DNA of 39,092 nt, from the NCBI GenBank assembly GCA_945892755.1, contig CAMDDO010000022.1:1-39092 (forward strand), in the 5' to 3' direction. The position numbers were made by a program, and so were the translations under genes. Below the pieces are notes generated by a model. The model was given only the letters and a program-made list of their open reading frames with translations, ran no database searches and was not told the origin of the DNA. Every line of letters begins with the position of its first letter. The stretch's first letter is position 1. This document shows positions 19,485-26,023 of the stretch, one piece after another. The stretch comes from Rhizobium sp. Q54. Its GTDB lineage: Bacteria > Pseudomonadota > Alphaproteobacteria > UBA828.

Positions 19485-20309
19485 TCAGATCATTGCGTCG
19501 ATGAAACGCTGATCCATCTCGCGCGCAGGTTGGTCGCAGCCGGCGGTGCCGACGATTTTGGCCGGTATGCCGGCCACAGTCGTGCACCGCGGCACGTCTT
19601 CCAGCACGACGCTGCCGGCACCGACCCTCGAATATTCGCCGATCTCGATATTGCCAAGGAGCTTGGCGCCGGCACCGAGCATTGCGCCGCGTCGGACCTT
19701 GGGGTGCCGGTCGCCGGTCTGCTTGCCAGTGCCGCCGAGGGTCACCTCATGCAACATGGACACGTCGTCCTCGACCACCGCGGTCTCGCCGATCACCACC
19801 GATGTCGCGTGGTCGATCATGATGCCGCGGCCGATCCGCGCCGCCGGGTGAATATCAGCGCCGAACACCTCGGAGACGCGGGCCTGCAGGAACAATGCCA
19901 TGGGCCGACGCTCGTTAGTCCACATCCAGTGCGCCACGCGATAGGCTTGCAGCGCCTGAAAGCCCTTGAAATAGAGTAGGGGTTGGATCAACCACTGGCA
20001 GGCCGGATCGCGTTCCTTCACCGCCATCAGATCGGCGCGCACGGCATTGCCGATATCGGGATCGGCGCTGAACGCCTCGTCGAATGGCTGGCGCAGCAAC
20101 ATGGCCGGCACCTCCGCGCTCCCGAGCTTCTGCGCCAGGTGGAAGGTGAGCGCGCTTTCGAAGCGCTCGTGGTTCAGGATCGTGGCGTGCAGGAAGCTCG
20201 CCAAGGTCGGCTCGCGCGCCGCCATATCGGCGGCCTCGGTGCGGACGGTGAGCCAGATCGGGTCATGAACGGCGAGTTTGGCGGTCGTCTTCTGCATGGG
20301 ATTTTGCAT
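19485..20309 (-). CDS. cysE: Serine O-acetyltransferase
   Basis: This 274-aa enzyme acetylates L-serine with acetyl-CoA to give O-acetylserine, the substrate of cysteine synthase. The N-terminal helical domain (about 15-150) leads to a left-handed beta-helix with hexapeptide repeats; the active-site segment IDHATSVVIGETAVV is clear. The C-terminus ends in Met-Ile, and a terminal Ile is what cysteine synthase binds in the CysE-CysK complex. Length matches the family. GGGGAT precedes the ATG; a second Met at codon 5 is possible. It stands alone, after a 71-bp gap from the acyl-CoA dehydrogenase gene on the other strand. Confidence 0.95.
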   Translation of the reverse strand: MQNPMQKTTAKLAVHDPIWLTVRTEAADMAAREPTLASFLHATILNHERFESALTFHLAQKLGSAEVPAMLLRQPFDEAFSADPDIGNAVRADLMAVKERDPACQWLIQPLLYFKGFQALQAYRVAHWMWTNERRPMALFLQARVSEVFGADIHPAARIGRGIMIDHATSVVIGETAVVEDDVSMLHEVTLGGTGKQTGDRHPKVRRGAMLGAGAKLLGNIEIGEYSRVGAGSVVLEDVPRCTTVAGIPAKIVGTAGCDQPAREMDQRFIDAMI

Positions 20310-20417
20310 GCGATTATCCCCGGTCGAACGTACTGGTTGACGCTATCCTAATAGATGGCGCGCCGGCGCGTCGATTCAATTGGGAGTCTTGGGCAGATGC
20401 CTAGGTCAACTTTCGGG

Positions 20418-21227
20418 CTAAGGTGCCTGGTCCTGAACCAGGCGCTCGACAAAGTCGCGCAGCATACCGCCCTCGCACCCGCCGGCCTTGCGGGCCATGC
20501 GGTTGACGCGCGAAATAACGCCGGTCTGCCAAGATGAACGCGCATCGCCAATCCGGGCTGACGTAGCAGCAACGGTCGCGCCGATCACCCCCATGTCATC
20601 GAGCAGAGGCAGGCGACTTACCCCAGCCTCGTCAATGCCGATACCGGCGTCGTTGAAGAAGGCGGCAAGCGGTGGCCCCTTGACGATATGATCCGATTTA
20701 CCGGCGAGCAGCGCGCCATGGGAGCCTGTGACAATGACACGCCCAAGATCACTAGGTTCCATGAGCGCGGCTGAATCAATACCCCAGACTTCGGGTTCGC
20801 CCCGCATGGCGCGAAGACAGGTGCGTGCTTCGACATAGGCTGGCGGCTCGATCGCATGCGCCACCGCCGCGCGCATCAGCTCGGCCGCCGCCATGATCCG
20901 CTGTCCCACCGCGCAACCAAGCGCGGCGGCGGTCTTGCTGACGCAACTGACGATGCCGCGTTGAGCAATATCGGCGCCGTCGGCGATGCGGGCCGAGAGG
21001 TGGCTCACCGTGAGCGCTGGAATGCCAAGCCGATCAAGATAGAGGAGGGAGGCGATTCCTGCCGCTTCTATGCCGATGCCGGCATCATTGAAACTGACGC
21101 CCAGCACGCCGGCCTTGGCGGCGAGGTAACCAGGGTAAAGCCCGCCATGCGAGCCCGTGATCACGATCCGGCCGCTATGGCGCGGTTCGAATTGCGTGGC
21201 GCTATCGAGGATGAGGATTTCCGGCAT
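20418..21227 (-). CDS. Unrecognised protein with internal tandem duplication, in ABC operon
   Basis: I do not recognise this 269-aa family. It is built of two similar halves: residues 8-109 and 151-254. Both start with DSA, then EP, then [IV]-x-TGSHG (24-28 and 167-171), then FNDAGIGI (46-53 and 191-198), an acidic residue and AG, LD near a Gly, TV, then SARI-x-D (78-83 and 223-228) and G-[IV]-[IV]-S. The conserved His, Asn and Asp in both halves look like a site repeated twice, so an enzyme or ligand-binding protein is plausible. It has no signal peptide and no membrane segment. It lies 18 nt after the LivF/UrtE-like gene and is the last gene of the ABC operon, so a role in handling the imported solute is inferred. 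Duplication with short linker (110-150) is certain; function is not. Confidence 0.85.
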   Translation of the reverse strand: MPEILILDSATQFEPRHSGRIVITGSHGGLYPGYLAAKAGVLGVSFNDAGIGIEAAGIASLLYLDRLGIPALTVSHLSARIADGADIAQRGIVSCVSKTAAALGCAVGQRIMAAAELMRAAVAHAIEPPAYVEARTCLRAMRGEPEVWGIDSAALMEPSDLGRVIVTGSHGALLAGKSDHIVKGPPLAAFFNDAGIGIDEAGVSRLPLLDDMGVIGATVAATSARIGDARSSWQTGVISRVNRMARKAGGCEGGMLRDFVERLVQDQAP

Positions 21228-21245: not shown

Positions 21246-21953
21246 CTACGCCGCACCCATGCCGACGAATTCAGCGATCAATTCGGGGTTTTCAAGTTGG
21301 TCCGGCGTGACCTCGCCGGTAATCTGGCCGCGCTGGATGATCAGCACACGTTGCGACAACGCGGCAATGAACTCCAGGTTCTGCTCGACCAGAACAATAG
21401 TGAGGCCGCGCTGATCGCGCAGGCGTTTCAGGATCTCGACGATTTCCTCGATGATTGATGGCTGAATGCCTTCGGTCGGCTCGTCGAGCAAGAGGAGCTT
21501 TGGCCTGCCACAGAGCGCGCGGGCCAGCGCAAGGATTTGTTGCTCGCCGCCGGAGAGGACGCCGCCGGCGCGGTCGAGCAAGGGCTTCAGCCGCGGGAAC
21601 TCTGTGAGCGTCTCCTCGATGATTGCGGCCTCGTCGGTCTTATGTACGGCGAAGCCGAAGCGAAGGTTGTCGAGCACGCTCAGATTGGGAAAGATATCGC
21701 GACCCTGCGGCACATAGCCGATGCCCATGCGGTTGCGCCGGAACGACGCCTCGCGCGTGATCTCCTTGCCGTTGAACTCAACCTGCCCACCGGTCGCGCG
21801 GAGCAGGCCGATCAGCGTCTTCAGCAGCGTCGTCTTGCCCATGCCGTTATGGCCGAGAATGCCGACGAACTCGCCATCCTTCACAGCGAAATTGACGCCG
21901 TGAAGTATTGGGATGCGGCCATAGGCGGCGCGTAGGTCGGTGACGCTCAACAT
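21246..21953 (-). CDS. urtE: ABC transporter ATP-binding protein, UrtE/LivF type
   Basis: This 235-aa ATPase powers the importer. Walker A is GHNGMGKTT, the Q-loop lies in YVPQGRDIFP, the signature is LSGGEQQ, Walker B is LLLLDEPTEG, and the switch region is VEQN in place of the usual His, as in LivF proteins. The run TEGIQPSII after Walker B is typical of UrtE, so I favour the urea/amide branch over amino-acid LivF. It starts 3 nt after the stop of the partner ATPase gene. The alternative, a branched-chain amino acid transporter, is not excluded. Confidence 0.87.
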   Translation of the reverse strand: MLSVTDLRAAYGRIPILHGVNFAVKDGEFVGILGHNGMGKTTLLKTLIGLLRATGGQVEFNGKEITREASFRRNRMGIGYVPQGRDIFPNLSVLDNLRFGFAVHKTDEAAIIEETLTEFPRLKPLLDRAGGVLSGGEQQILALARALCGRPKLLLLDEPTEGIQPSIIEEIVEILKRLRDQRGLTIVLVEQNLEFIAALSQRVLIIQRGQITGEVTPDQLENPELIAEFVGMGAA

Positions 21954-21956
21954 GAT

Positions 21957-22682
21957 CTATACCGAATGTTTGCCCAGATAGACATCACGCACCTGCTGGT
22001 TGTTCATGATGTTGATCATGGTGTCCTCAACCAGGATTTGGCCCTGATGAAACACGGTCACCTTTTGCGCGATCGCCTTGATGAACTGCATATCATGCTC
22101 GACCACGATGAGCGCGGCCTGGCGGTTGATCTCGCGAATCAATTCGGTGGTACGCCCGACCTCATCGCCGGTCATGCCCGCGGTCGGCTCGTCAAGCAGG
22201 ATCAGCTTCGGCTCGCCTGTCAGCACGATGCCAAGCTCGACCCATTGCCGCTCGCCATGGGCAAGCTGGCCGACCAGCTTTTTGGTCGCATGGCCGAGAC
22301 CGACGCGCTCAATGATCTGATCGGTGATCCGGTTAGCCTCGCGCGTCTTGTGATGGCGACGCGCCGAAAGCCAGATGTTCTCATGCACGCTAAGGCCGTC
22401 GAACACGCTCGGTACCTGGGTCTTGATACCGATGCCGCGACGCGCGATCTGGAAGGTGATATCGCTGGTGATGTCGGCGCCGCGGAAAAACACCTGACCG
22501 GTGCTCGGCTTATATTGTCGCGTGAGGCATTTGAAGAATGTGCTCTTGCCGGCGCCATTGGGACCGATCAGGCAGCGCAGTTCGCCTTCCTTCATTGAAA
22601 AATCGACATTGTTGACCGCAACCACGCCGCCGAAGCGCATGGTCAGGCCGCGGGTCTCGAGAATGATTCCGTCTTCGGCCAT
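21957..22682 (-). CDS. urtD: ABC transporter ATP-binding protein, UrtD/LivG type
   Basis: This 241-aa ATPase pairs with the 21246-21953 product. Walker A is GPNGAGKST, the signature is LAHGERQ, Walker B is LILLDEPTAGM, and the H-loop is VEHD. The signature with His instead of Gly (LSHG-like) and the run TAGMTGDE are features of UrtD rather than LivG. I chose ATG 22682, which lies 7 nt after the permease stop; an upstream in-frame ATG at 22760 would overlap the permease gene and add an unrelated N-terminus. Confidence 0.87.
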   Translation of the reverse strand: MAEDGIILETRGLTMRFGGVVAVNNVDFSMKEGELRCLIGPNGAGKSTFFKCLTRQYKPSTGQVFFRGADITSDITFQIARRGIGIKTQVPSVFDGLSVHENIWLSARRHHKTREANRITDQIIERVGLGHATKKLVGQLAHGERQWVELGIVLTGEPKLILLDEPTAGMTGDEVGRTTELIREINRQAALIVVEHDMQFIKAIAQKVTVFHQGQILVEDTMINIMNNQQVRDVYLGKHSV

Positions 22683-22689
22683 TGCGCGC

Positions 22690-23844
22690 TCAGCCCTTCG
22701 TTCTGTCGCCGGCGGTCGGCCCGAGCACGCCGAGGAGACGTTCCCCGAACGCGCGAACATGGACGTTACCGGGCGCCGGCAATTGCTCCGCCAAGTTCAG
22801 GACGGCGCCTGCGATCGCGCGCCGGTATCGACCGCCTTGCTCGCGCCAATCGCGCAGGGTCGGCACAATGCCTTGGGGAATTGCCAGCACGAAAATCATC
22901 ACGATCAGCCCGAAGATCAAATAGGTGTTCAACCCGCCGCCGGAGGCGCCAGTGCCGAGGATGAACGAAACATAGAGTAGCACGACGCAGCCGATCATCG
23001 GGCCCAGCAATGTGCCGACACCGCCAACCAGCACCCACATGATAATCTGCGCGGCGAGCGAGAGGTGAAACGCGTTCGGGCTGATGAAGTTCTTGTAATT
23101 GATCGACAGGCAACCGGCGAGGCCGGCGATCGCCGCGCCGATCACAAAGACCGTGAGCTTGTAGAGGCGCACGTCATAGCCGAGAAGCTCGGCACGTAGT
23201 TCGTTTTCCTTCACCGCGACGACGACCCGGCCGAAGGTCGAGCCGAGCAGCATCTTGAGGCCGACATAGGTGGCAATCAGCAGGCCCATGGAGAAGTAGA
23301 AAAGATGATTGGCGCTCAGAAGCGCCTTGGGGTCGCCGGGCCAGTTGAACTTGCGGATCGATGAGATGCCGTTGAAGCCCATCAGGCGGGCCTTGCCGAT
23401 GCTGTACTCGTCGCCTGACGTCGAATTGATGAAGTAATAGAGCGCGAGCGTGACCGCGAGCGTGATGACCGCGACATAGACGTCGTTCAAGCGGCCGAAG
23501 AACATGAAATAGCCAAGGATCGCCGCGAATATCGCGGGAATGATCATGGCCAGGAAGAAGGGCGCCGTGCTCTCGCCGATATTGCCAACCGATATCGCAT
23601 AAGCGTAGCCGCCGAGCCCGAAGAACATCGACTGACCGAAGCACATGATCCCGCCAAAGCCCCAGATGAAGGCCATGCTGAGGGCGAGGACGATCATGCT
23701 GACGTAATAGCGGACCTGCAGCAGCAATAGCGGGTCATCCAACACCGGCAGGATGAAGAGCAGCACCACCATCACGCCGGCCACCGCCCAAGTGCCGTGG
23801 CGGTTCGAATCGAAGCGCCAGCCGGAGGCCAAGAGGCCCGTCAC
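22690..23844 (-). CDS. urtC: ABC transporter permease, UrtC/LivM type
   Basis: This 384-aa inner-membrane protein has about 9-10 hydrophobic segments. The cytoplasmic ATPase-contact loop ENELRAELLGYDVRLYK is the LivM/UrtC signature. I place the start at GTG 23844, not the longer frame to 23946: GGAG lies 6 nt before the GTG, and GTGA overlaps the stop of the upstream permease gene, a standard coupling arrangement. The C-terminal cytoplasmic tail (about 40 residues) is longer than usual and charged. Confidence 0.86.
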   Translation of the reverse strand: MTGLLASGWRFDSNRHGTWAVAGVMVVLLFILPVLDDPLLLLQVRYYVSMIVLALSMAFIWGFGGIMCFGQSMFFGLGGYAYAISVGNIGESTAPFFLAMIIPAIFAAILGYFMFFGRLNDVYVAVITLAVTLALYYFINSTSGDEYSIGKARLMGFNGISSIRKFNWPGDPKALLSANHLFYFSMGLLIATYVGLKMLLGSTFGRVVVAVKENELRAELLGYDVRLYKLTVFVIGAAIAGLAGCLSINYKNFISPNAFHLSLAAQIIMWVLVGGVGTLLGPMIGCVVLLYVSFILGTGASGGGLNTYLIFGLIVMIFVLAIPQGIVPTLRDWREQGGRYRRAIAGAVLNLAEQLPAPGNVHVRAFGERLLGVLGPTAGDRTKG

Positions 23845-24710
23845 GTCGATCTCCGGAAGTATCGCCCGGTGATCCCGGTCGGGAAGATGCGTAGCAGGAT
23901 CACCGCGGTAATCAGCAGGAAGACCTGGCCGAGGATCGGCGTCCATTGGAAGGAGATGATCTGGCGTACGGCCCCGAAGACACCCGAGGCCAGCACGGTG
24001 CCGGTAAAGGCCGCCGCGCCGCCGGTGATCACGGTAATGAACGCCTGCGCGACATAGGACACGCCGATGGTCGGAATCACCGTGTTGAGTGGCGCGAGAA
24101 TGGCGCCGGCGAGGCCAGTCAATGCGGCGCCGATCGCGAAAGTGACCATGTAGACGCGCGGCGGGCTAACGCCAAGGCAGGACGCCTGACTGGGGTTCTG
24201 CATGGTGCCGCGCGCGATCAGGCCAAGCTTGGTGCGGCGCAAGACGACGAAGATGGCGAGGTAGATCACCACGGTGAACGCGATCATCACGAGCGTATAG
24301 GTCTTCTCGCTATAGTCGCCGAAGGAATAGGAGCCGAGCGGCGTTTGGACGCCGCGCGTGACATTGCCGAAGATCCAGGTAATCACGCCGATCAGGAACA
24401 GGCTGAGGCCCCAGGTGGCGATCAGCGTATCGATCATACGGCCATAGAGGAAGCGTATGAGAATTCGCTCGAAGACCAGGCCGATCAGGCCAACGAGGAT
24501 CGGCGCGATGATGAGCATCGCTACCCACAGATTGATGCCGAATTGCTCGGTGCACACGATAACGACATAGCCGCCGAGCATCATGAATTCGCCATGCGCG
24601 AAATTGATCACGCGCATCATGCCGAAAATCACCGCTAGACCAGCGCCCATCAGCGCCAGCGTCGCAATGCCGCTCAGCACCTGAATGATCTGAATGCCGA
24701 CGAGATCCAT
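23841..24710 (-). CDS. urtB: ABC transporter permease, UrtB/LivH type
   Basis: This 289-aa inner-membrane protein has about 8 hydrophobic segments. MRVINFAHGEFMMLGGY near the N-terminus is the LivH/UrtB signature, and GTMQNPSQASCLGVSPPRVY is the ATPase-contact loop. It lacks the long N-terminal extension that some UrtB proteins have. The gene overlaps the next permease by 4 nt (GTGA). It begins 62 nt after the binding-protein gene, with a strong hairpin between them. Confidence 0.88.
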   Translation of the reverse strand: MDLVGIQIIQVLSGIATLALMGAGLAVIFGMMRVINFAHGEFMMLGGYVVIVCTEQFGINLWVAMLIIAPILVGLIGLVFERILIRFLYGRMIDTLIATWGLSLFLIGVITWIFGNVTRGVQTPLGSYSFGDYSEKTYTLVMIAFTVVIYLAIFVVLRRTKLGLIARGTMQNPSQASCLGVSPPRVYMVTFAIGAALTGLAGAILAPLNTVIPTIGVSYVAQAFITVITGGAAAFTGTVLASGVFGAVRQIISFQWTPILGQVFLLITAVILLRIFPTGITGRYFRRST

Positions 24711-24772: not shown

Positions 24773-26023
24773 CTAGATTTGCGGCGTGAATTGCTCAGCC
24801 GTCTCCGGATTCTTGGTCAAATCGCAACGATCCTTCACATCGTCCGGGCGGAGCTGGTTGATGGTCTGGAACACCTTCCAAGAACCGCCCTCGACCTTGG
24901 CGAGGTGGACGTCCTGGGTGCAGTGCATGCTGGCCGGGTCTATGGTCAGCTTGCCCGAGGGGCCTTCCCATGACATGCCGCTTGCGAGCGCCTTCAAGAC
25001 CGCCTCGCGCTCGATCGTGCCGGCCTTTTTGACCGCCTCGGCCCAGAACCAGGTGCCGATATAGCTGCCACTGCCGACCGAATTGAGGTAGGGCGCCTTG
25101 TCGGGCCCGCCGAAGCGATCCTGGAAGCGCTTGACGAATGCCTTGTTGGCCGGTGTCTCGAGTTCTTGGAAATAGGGCTGCGCCGAGACGATGCCATCGC
25201 ACTCCTCGGGCTTCAGCGACTTGTGCTCATTGCCGACGCCGAAGGTGAAGGAGACCATCGGGATCTTGCTGAGCATGCCGGCCGCCGCCCATTGGCGGTA
25301 GAAGCTGATGTGCGCGCCGCCGACCAAGCAGGTGTAGAGGAAGTCGGGCTTCGCGGCTTGGATCTTGGAAATCTCGGGCCCGAATTCGGTGACGTCGAGC
25401 GGGAAAAGATTCTTCGCCAGCCATTCGCCGCCATGTTCGGTGACGTATTTCTTGCCCCAATCGCCGATGATCTGCGGCGCGTTGTAGTCGGCGCCGATGT
25501 AGTAGACCTTCTTGCCGTAATTCTTCATGCCGTACTCGACCACCGGATCGCCCATCTGGAGCGGCGTCGCGCCCGAGACGACATTGTTCATGTCGCACAC
25601 GCCACCTTCATAGATCACCGAATACCAGAGCATGGTCTTGTTCTCGCCGAGGATCGGCCGGATCACCTCGCGCGAGGCGCTGGTGATGGCGCCCTGCACG
25701 ACCGCGACCTTCTCCTTCAGCGCGGCTTCCTGCGCGTATTGCGCATAGAGTTCCATGTTCGACTGGGGATCGTAGGAGATCAGGCGGATTTTCTTGCCGA
25801 GCAAGCCGCCCGCCGCGTTGATTTCTTCGACCGCGAGCGTCGCGCACATGGTCATCGGCGTGCCGTAAACATCGAGGCCGCCCGATTGGTCGAACAGACT
25901 GGCGATAACGATCTCATCATCGGCGCGCGCGATGCGCACATTGCCCATGAGGCCTGCGGCCGTGATCGCCGCCGCCGACGCGGCCGAGGTCGCGAGGAAC
26001 TTACGTCTGGTGATCGAACCCAT
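24773..26023 (-). CDS. urtA: ABC transporter substrate-binding protein, urea/short-chain amide type (Peripla_BP_6-like)
   Basis: This 416-aa protein binds the solute in the periplasm. The N-terminus has a Tat signal, TRRKFLA with R6 and R7, followed by an Ala-rich hydrophobic stretch and cleavage near IARA. The mature part has the type 1 binding-protein fold: SLFDQSGGLDVYG, EEINAAGG, and Q-loop-like DPQSN. The segment HCTQDVHLAKVEG near the C-terminus is like those in UrtA, FmdD and AmiC. GGGAGGGA precedes the ATG. It is first in the operon, and the 266 bp upstream (26024-26289) is free of genes and should hold the promoter; I saw no clear sigma-54 site there. No urease or amidase gene is near, so urea itself is uncertain. 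Confidence 0.86.
   Translation of the reverse strand: MGSITRRKFLATSAASAAAITAAGLMGNVRIARADDEIVIASLFDQSGGLDVYGTPMTMCATLAVEEINAAGGLLGKKIRLISYDPQSNMELYAQYAQEAALKEKVAVVQGAITSASREVIRPILGENKTMLWYSVIYEGGVCDMNNVVSGATPLQMGDPVVEYGMKNYGKKVYYIGADYNAPQIIGDWGKKYVTEHGGEWLAKNLFPLDVTEFGPEISKIQAAKPDFLYTCLVGGAHISFYRQWAAAGMLSKIPMVSFTFGVGNEHKSLKPEECDGIVSAQPYFQELETPANKAFVKRFQDRFGGPDKAPYLNSVGSGSYIGTWFWAEAVKKAGTIEREAVLKALASGMSWEGPSGKLTIDPASMHCTQDVHLAKVEGGSWKVFQTINQLRPDDVKDRCDLTKNPETAEQFTPQI

Follow-up and report, generated by a model that had tools for sequence, protein, structure and literature searches.

The strongest result of this analysis is the genome co-occurrence of a tandem DUF1805-like gene with genes for thiamine-diphosphate (ThDP) enzymes, and a functional link of the encoded protein to this ThDP module is very likely. 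The gene was studied in a stretch of 39,092 nucleotides from Rhizobium sp. Q54, the whole of which is here referred to as the window. As the best explanation of the data as a whole we tentatively favor a diverged tandem DUF1805 enzyme which would be a companion of the ThDP module and would have been recruited here to an Urt-like operon.

Gene structure and internal duplication

The gene and its two halves have the following positions:

20421..21227, minus strand: CDS of the tandem DUF1805-like protein, 269 aa, ATG start, stop codon at 20418-20420
20856..21227, minus strand: N-terminal DUF1805-like half, residues 1-124
20421..20837, minus strand: C-terminal DUF1805-like half, residues 131-269

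An earlier note on this DNA had described a two-fold internal repeat in the product of 20418-21227, and this was borne out by BLASTP, shuffling and hhalign, all of which gave significant results. Half 1 and half 2 shared 44% identity across 110 residues (BLASTP, E 1e-24) and reached a Smith-Waterman score of 201, compared to 30 ± 5 with a maximum of 53 in 1000 shuffles. The alignments of the two halves matched each other with a probability of 100 and an E of 1.4e-39 in a profile-profile comparison (hhalign). Half 1 carried the motifs ITGSHGG, FNDAGIGI..AGI and SARIAD; in half 2 these were VTGSHG, FNDAGIGI..AG and SARIGD.

Fold and relationship to DUF1805

AlphaFold (AF2) modelled the whole chain with a pLDDT of 95.3 and a pTM of 0.90, and half 1 alone with a pLDDT of 96.2. 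The top solved match of both models was 1qw2 (TA1206, DUF1805), with Z 7.9 and 95/102 residues for the whole model (next Z 5.5) and Z 8.0 and an rmsd of 2.2 over 74 of 102 residues for half 1 (next 5.9); this match comes from VIA re-alignment, and a Z near 8 calls for caution since it can reflect a common arrangement. TA1206 has been listed with DUF1805 (PMC9425974). Foldseek by itself gave no match at E<=0.001, and no significant match was found with sequence profiles against the PDB. The second-ranked structure, SteA (9hmy), was rejected due to its low Z of 5.5-5.9.

On the sequence side, PF08827 (DUF1805) was weakly matched by 33 of 37 homologues with a best E of 3e-8. Members with reported bit scores stayed below the curated cut-off of 29.5 bits, reaching up to 28.0 bits; the member with E 3e-8 probably lies above it. 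For the window protein itself no DUF1805 match was obtained in Pfam, and the Pfam and NCBIfam searches with it yielded nothing meaningful. When 279 alphaproteobacterial genomes were searched with PF08827, none of them (0/279) contained a hit above the cut-off, and the top four places were taken by genes of the tandem family. Together, the model match to 1qw2 and the PF08827 matches argue for a diverged tandem DUF1805 protein. With fold and profile methods agreeing, this relationship is very likely, although the sub-threshold profile scores, like the Z near 8, call for caution. The two halves may be arranged as an intramolecular pseudo-dimer.

The protein had previously been called unrecognised. 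This holds as far as families of known function are concerned, to none of which the whole protein could be matched, but each half turned out to be a diverged DUF1805 domain. A DUF1805 structure has been available since 2004 (1qw2), and our literature search on DUF1805, COG3377 and YunC found no reported function; in the library searched, DUF1805 is named by two papers, both of which leave its function unassigned. DUF1805 members of methanogens have been reported to be linked to Trm11 (PMC9425974).

Several other similarities were rejected or weak. The Y-family polymerase model (IMS, PF00817) was matched by 27 of 37 members through one short patch of 30 to 55 residues; VIA aligned 47 residues for Y-family DNA polymerase, and the full polymerase domain was not matched. 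In one homologue (L036:2526-3374) this patch exceeds the IMS cut-off (24.6 vs 23.2 bits), a possible source of misannotation. The 2-phosphosulfolactate phosphatase ComB (PF04029) was hit by one single-domain relative with E 0.18 and 11.3 bits against a cut-off of 26.4. Weak matches in 307-aa ORFs covered the first two strands only and were regarded as a generic nucleotide-binding-fold resemblance (cf. DepH).

Conserved residues

Six motifs were located in the alignment of 68 members:

21141..21152, minus strand: SHGG motif of half 1, S26 invariant (68/68), H27 in 65/68
21072..21089, minus strand: NDAGIG motif of half 1, D48 in 63/68, Asn in 5 rows
20979..20996, minus strand: SARIAD motif of half 1, R80 in 64/68
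20715..20723, minus strand: SHG motif of half 2, H170 in 68/68
20637..20654, minus strand: NDAGIG motif of half 2, D193 in 68/68
20544..20561, minus strand: SARIGD motif of half 2, R225 in 62/68

The His, Asn/Asp and Arg motifs, already recognized in the earlier note, are kept in both halves of this protein, for which no function has been described. Constant across all 68 members were S26, H170 and D193, while H27 was replaced by Tyr or Asn in three. In each half of the AlphaFold model the motifs come after predicted strands 2, 3 and 4. Half 2 additionally carries R205 and S231, for which half 1 lacks a conserved counterpart of the same type, with D86 at the place of S231; this indicates that the halves have specialised. 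Judged from the alignment, half 2 seems to be under tighter constraint than half 1, and the two halves may share one composite site.

Distribution of the family

In the 84,980 species genomes that were scanned, 38 relatives were found, mostly from alphaproteobacterial metagenome bins, with single relatives labelled as Thiotrichales, SAR324, Brevibacterium and Burkholderiales. A plasmid collection added copies from haloarchaea, Rhodococcus, Rhizobium and Aminobacter, most of them annotated as hypothetical proteins. Single-domain relatives were present in a Burkholderiales locus (L039) and in the genomes G513 and G624, which suggests that the tandem form arose by duplication and fusion from a single-domain ancestor. 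One further copy (G200:C181:22509-22889) consisted of one half only, in a 133-aa frame with a TAG stop within the match, and is perhaps a decayed tandem gene.

Co-occurrence with the ThDP module

The tandem DUF1805-like gene was found in 30 of 289 alphaproteobacterial genomes. An orthologue of an acetolactate-synthase-like (ALS-like) gene was present in 25 of the 289, 23 of which carry the tandem gene as well. For E1alpha (E<=1e-100) orthologues were found in 23 of the 289 genomes, and all 23 carry the tandem gene. Fisher's test gave 9e-26 for ALS-like and 3e-28 for E1alpha, values which are uncorrected and ignore phylogeny; the co-occurrence spread over 15-16 families. In some genomes (G080, G195 and G131) the genes were on separate contigs or distant from each other, yet co-occurred. 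Conversely, an ALS-like or E1alpha orthologue was present in 23 of the 30 genomes with the tandem gene, and the window genome has neither of them.

These counts bear on the idea of a general metabolite-repair or housekeeping protein which clears a side product near catabolic operons. The varied contexts of the gene (ThDP, OiaX/OiaK, beta-oxidation, GMC and plasmid replication genes) would fit such a role. A housekeeping gene, however, is not expected to track the ThDP module almost perfectly (E1alpha 23/23), and we consider this explanation highly improbable.

Gene neighborhood

We surveyed the genes within 8 kb (<=8 kb) of the tandem gene in 71 unique loci, some of which were short, so that the numbers of neighbors given here are minimum values. 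One or more ThDP genes (ALS-like and/or E1alpha/E1beta) were present in 45 of the 71 loci. An ALS-like gene, 58-100% identical to one query, was found in 40 loci, E1alpha and E1beta in 32 each, SDR in 25 and the TRAP genes DctM and DctP in 15 and 14 loci, respectively. Neighbors of the acid-catabolism type comprised DctP/DctM, IclR, SDR, GD_AH and MR_MLE; other neighbors varied and included beta-oxidation genes, plasmid genes and P450. Since across alphaproteobacteria the tandem gene travels mainly with ThDP enzymes and is found behind a urea-type transporter in the small lineage of the window only, a step of carbon degradation is likelier than a role devoted to a single imported amide.

Two loci (L094 and L115, genomes G102 and G208) contained two E1alpha/E1beta pairs on either side of the ALS-like gene. 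In three loci of one clade (L010, L016 and L019) a 2-isopropylmalate-synthase-like gene (HMGL + LeuA dimer domain) was located within 3 kb (<=3 kb). Sulfoacetaldehyde acetyltransferase (Xsc) was rejected as the identity of the ALS-like partner, as it reached 275.5 of 676 bits and was not the best match.

In 22 of the 40 loci with an ALS-like gene this gene was at most 60 nt away from the tandem gene, in 19 of these on the same strand, an arrangement like that of ilvB-ilvN. IlvN/IlvH is the small regulatory subunit of acetolactate synthase. By analogy, the tandem protein could be a non-catalytic partner of the ThDP enzyme: it would bind a hydroxy- or oxo-acid and serve as a regulator or scaffold, and its small chain without a recognised catalytic domain would suit this role. 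Against it, 7 of the 30 gene-carrying genomes, the window's included, had no ALS-like orthologue, and the tandem gene is also placed with OiaX/OiaK-like genes. Furthermore, the fold match is to DUF1805 with no match to an ACT domain, and the invariance of S26, H170 and D193 (68/68) is the pattern expected of an active site. A purely regulatory or scaffolding protein is therefore rather unlikely.

The Urt-like operon

In the window the tandem gene is flanked by the following genes:

19485..20309, minus strand: cysE-like serine O-acetyltransferase gene, downstream; downstream place kept in L002 and L003
21246..21953, minus strand: UrtE-like ATPase gene, 18 nt upstream (TIGR03410, 277.9 of 285.8 bits)
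21957..22760, minus strand: UrtD-like ATPase gene, best matched by TIGR03411; the true start is probably internal
22690..23946, minus strand: UrtC-like permease gene (TIGR03727/TIGR03408)
23841..24710, minus strand: UrtB-like permease gene (TIGR03622/TIGR03409)
24773..26023, minus strand: UrtA-like solute-binding protein gene (TIGR03669/TIGR03407)

The spacing of 18 nt behind the UrtE-like gene (21246-21953, minus strand) was confirmed. All five Urt-like genes had NCBIfam best matches below the curated cut-offs (UrtA-archaeal 318.9 of 494.8), so that urea or an amide as the solute is not implied.

Partly from this spacing, the earlier note had proposed a hydrolase or ligand-binding protein for the imported solute, which could be e.g. 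an amidase or lactonase. Apart from the 18-nt spacing, such a role could be supported by locus L002, in which the gene order is as in the window, and by L092, in which the same transporter is 2.5 kb off. However, these are the only two of the 71 other homologous loci with an Urt-like substrate-binding gene within 8 kb (<=8 kb), and both form a single clade with the window and L003 (support 93/84), the contig of L003 beginning inside the gene. As a general rule, a link to the Urt-like transporter was not supported: it is lost in related genomes, an outcome which the earlier note itself had named as speaking against its reading. Additionally, no amidase, formamidase, urease, hydrolase or lactonase match was found in the Pfam, NCBIfam and PDB sequence searches. 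Due to the missing family match and the clade-specific transporter link the Urt/amide hydrolase was rejected, and a hydrolase or binding protein for the transporter's solute is regarded as very unlikely. A lactonase step may nevertheless occur in apionate-like clusters.

The best ALS-like protein in the window genome showed 28% identity, and no E1alpha was found there at E<=1e-75. The Urt association, seen in one clade only, is thus a local recruitment or retention.

In L002 genes for a CoA-ligase and an SDR intervene between the tandem gene and cysE. These are missing from the corresponding ~0.1 kb of the window (20310-20417), and their orthologues (89-90%) are located on contig C3 of the window genome (716-3242).

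Apionate-type loci

The haloarchaeal plasmid copies and a rhizobial-type copy (G462) adjoin genes for a RuBisCO-like protein and a DUF1537-type kinase. For two loci (L069 and L090) the best NCBIfam models were those for OiaX and OiaK, enzymes of the 3-oxo-isoapionate route, with 446-536 of 700 bits and thus below the cut-off. In five loci (L066, L068, L069, L073 and L090) the homologues adjoin OiaX-like, OiaK-like and PGDH_C oxidoreductase genes; judged from their gene content, these loci appear to represent an apionate-type pathway with one extra gene. TRAP genes were also present in three haloarchaeal OiaX/OiaK-type loci. The D-apiose cluster described in PMC11747546 lists no tandem DUF1805-like protein.

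From a chemical point of view both contexts may be related. The compound 3-oxo-isoapionate is a hydroxylated analogue of acetolactate and is formed by an alkyl migration resembling that of ketol-acid reductoisomerase. As a lead, the ThDP and Oia contexts would therefore both handle 2-hydroxy-3-oxo acids.

Proposed function

We propose to place an acid-base enzyme ahead of a regulatory partner, a hydrolase for the transporter's solute and a repair protein. The chain holds two fused copies of a diverged DUF1805 domain of the YunC/TA1206 type. The His and Asp residues would perform acid-base chemistry, with H170 and D193 of half 2 as the invariant candidates, and Arg might bind the carboxylate of the substrate. 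The substrate would be a branched or 2-hydroxy-3-oxo acid, either acetolactate-like or 3-oxo-isoapionate-like, and the protein, working next to a ThDP or OiaX-type step, could be an isomerase, an epimerase, a decarboxylase or a lyase. In the window lineage, where the ThDP partners are absent, the gene would have joined an operon for Urt-like import, whose substrate is presumably a related acid; genes of the beta-oxidation type lie close by.

Activity on a hydroxy- or oxo-acid is possible, yet somewhat doubtful. The same degree of doubt applies to a new two-DUF1805 enzyme family that catalyzes an acetolactate-like or branched sugar-acid step in an undescribed ThDP catabolic pathway and is reused in other operons. 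DUF1805 has no known enzymatic activity, so that the catalytic role is guessed from the conserved residues. Moreover, the neighbors vary (beta-oxidation, plasmid genes, P450), so that a single reaction may not fit all members.

The tandem version provides a first strong functional lead for DUF1805-type proteins. If the proposal is true, a function could be assigned to these proteins, and alphaproteobacteria would possess a ThDP-based route of acid catabolism with a related use in haloarchaea.

Comparison with known systems

The five adjacent genes of the window fit Urt models best and in this respect resemble UrtABCDE urea transporter operons. They differ in scores below the cut-offs and in a companion gene which is neither a urease nor an amidase. 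With IlvB-IlvN acetolactate synthase the system shares a small gene adjoining an ALS-like gene in many genomes, but the tandem protein has no ACT match and its gene also occurs without the ALS-like partner. The D-apionate/3-oxo-isoapionate pathway (OiaK kinase, OiaX RuBisCO-like decarboxylase) is similar in that homologues adjoin OiaX-/OiaK-like and 6PGDH-C-like genes, whereas the window shows no such cluster.

With DUF1805 (PF08827, COG3377; TA1206, Bacillus YunC) the protein has in common the region RG-x-IS..N..A..LG...GM and the fold that each of its halves adopts. The gene contexts of the tandem protein differ from those of DUF1805. In its usual form DUF1805 is a single short domain of ~100 residues, whereas the window protein consists of two fused domains of ~125 residues each, with GSHGG and NDAGIG motifs.
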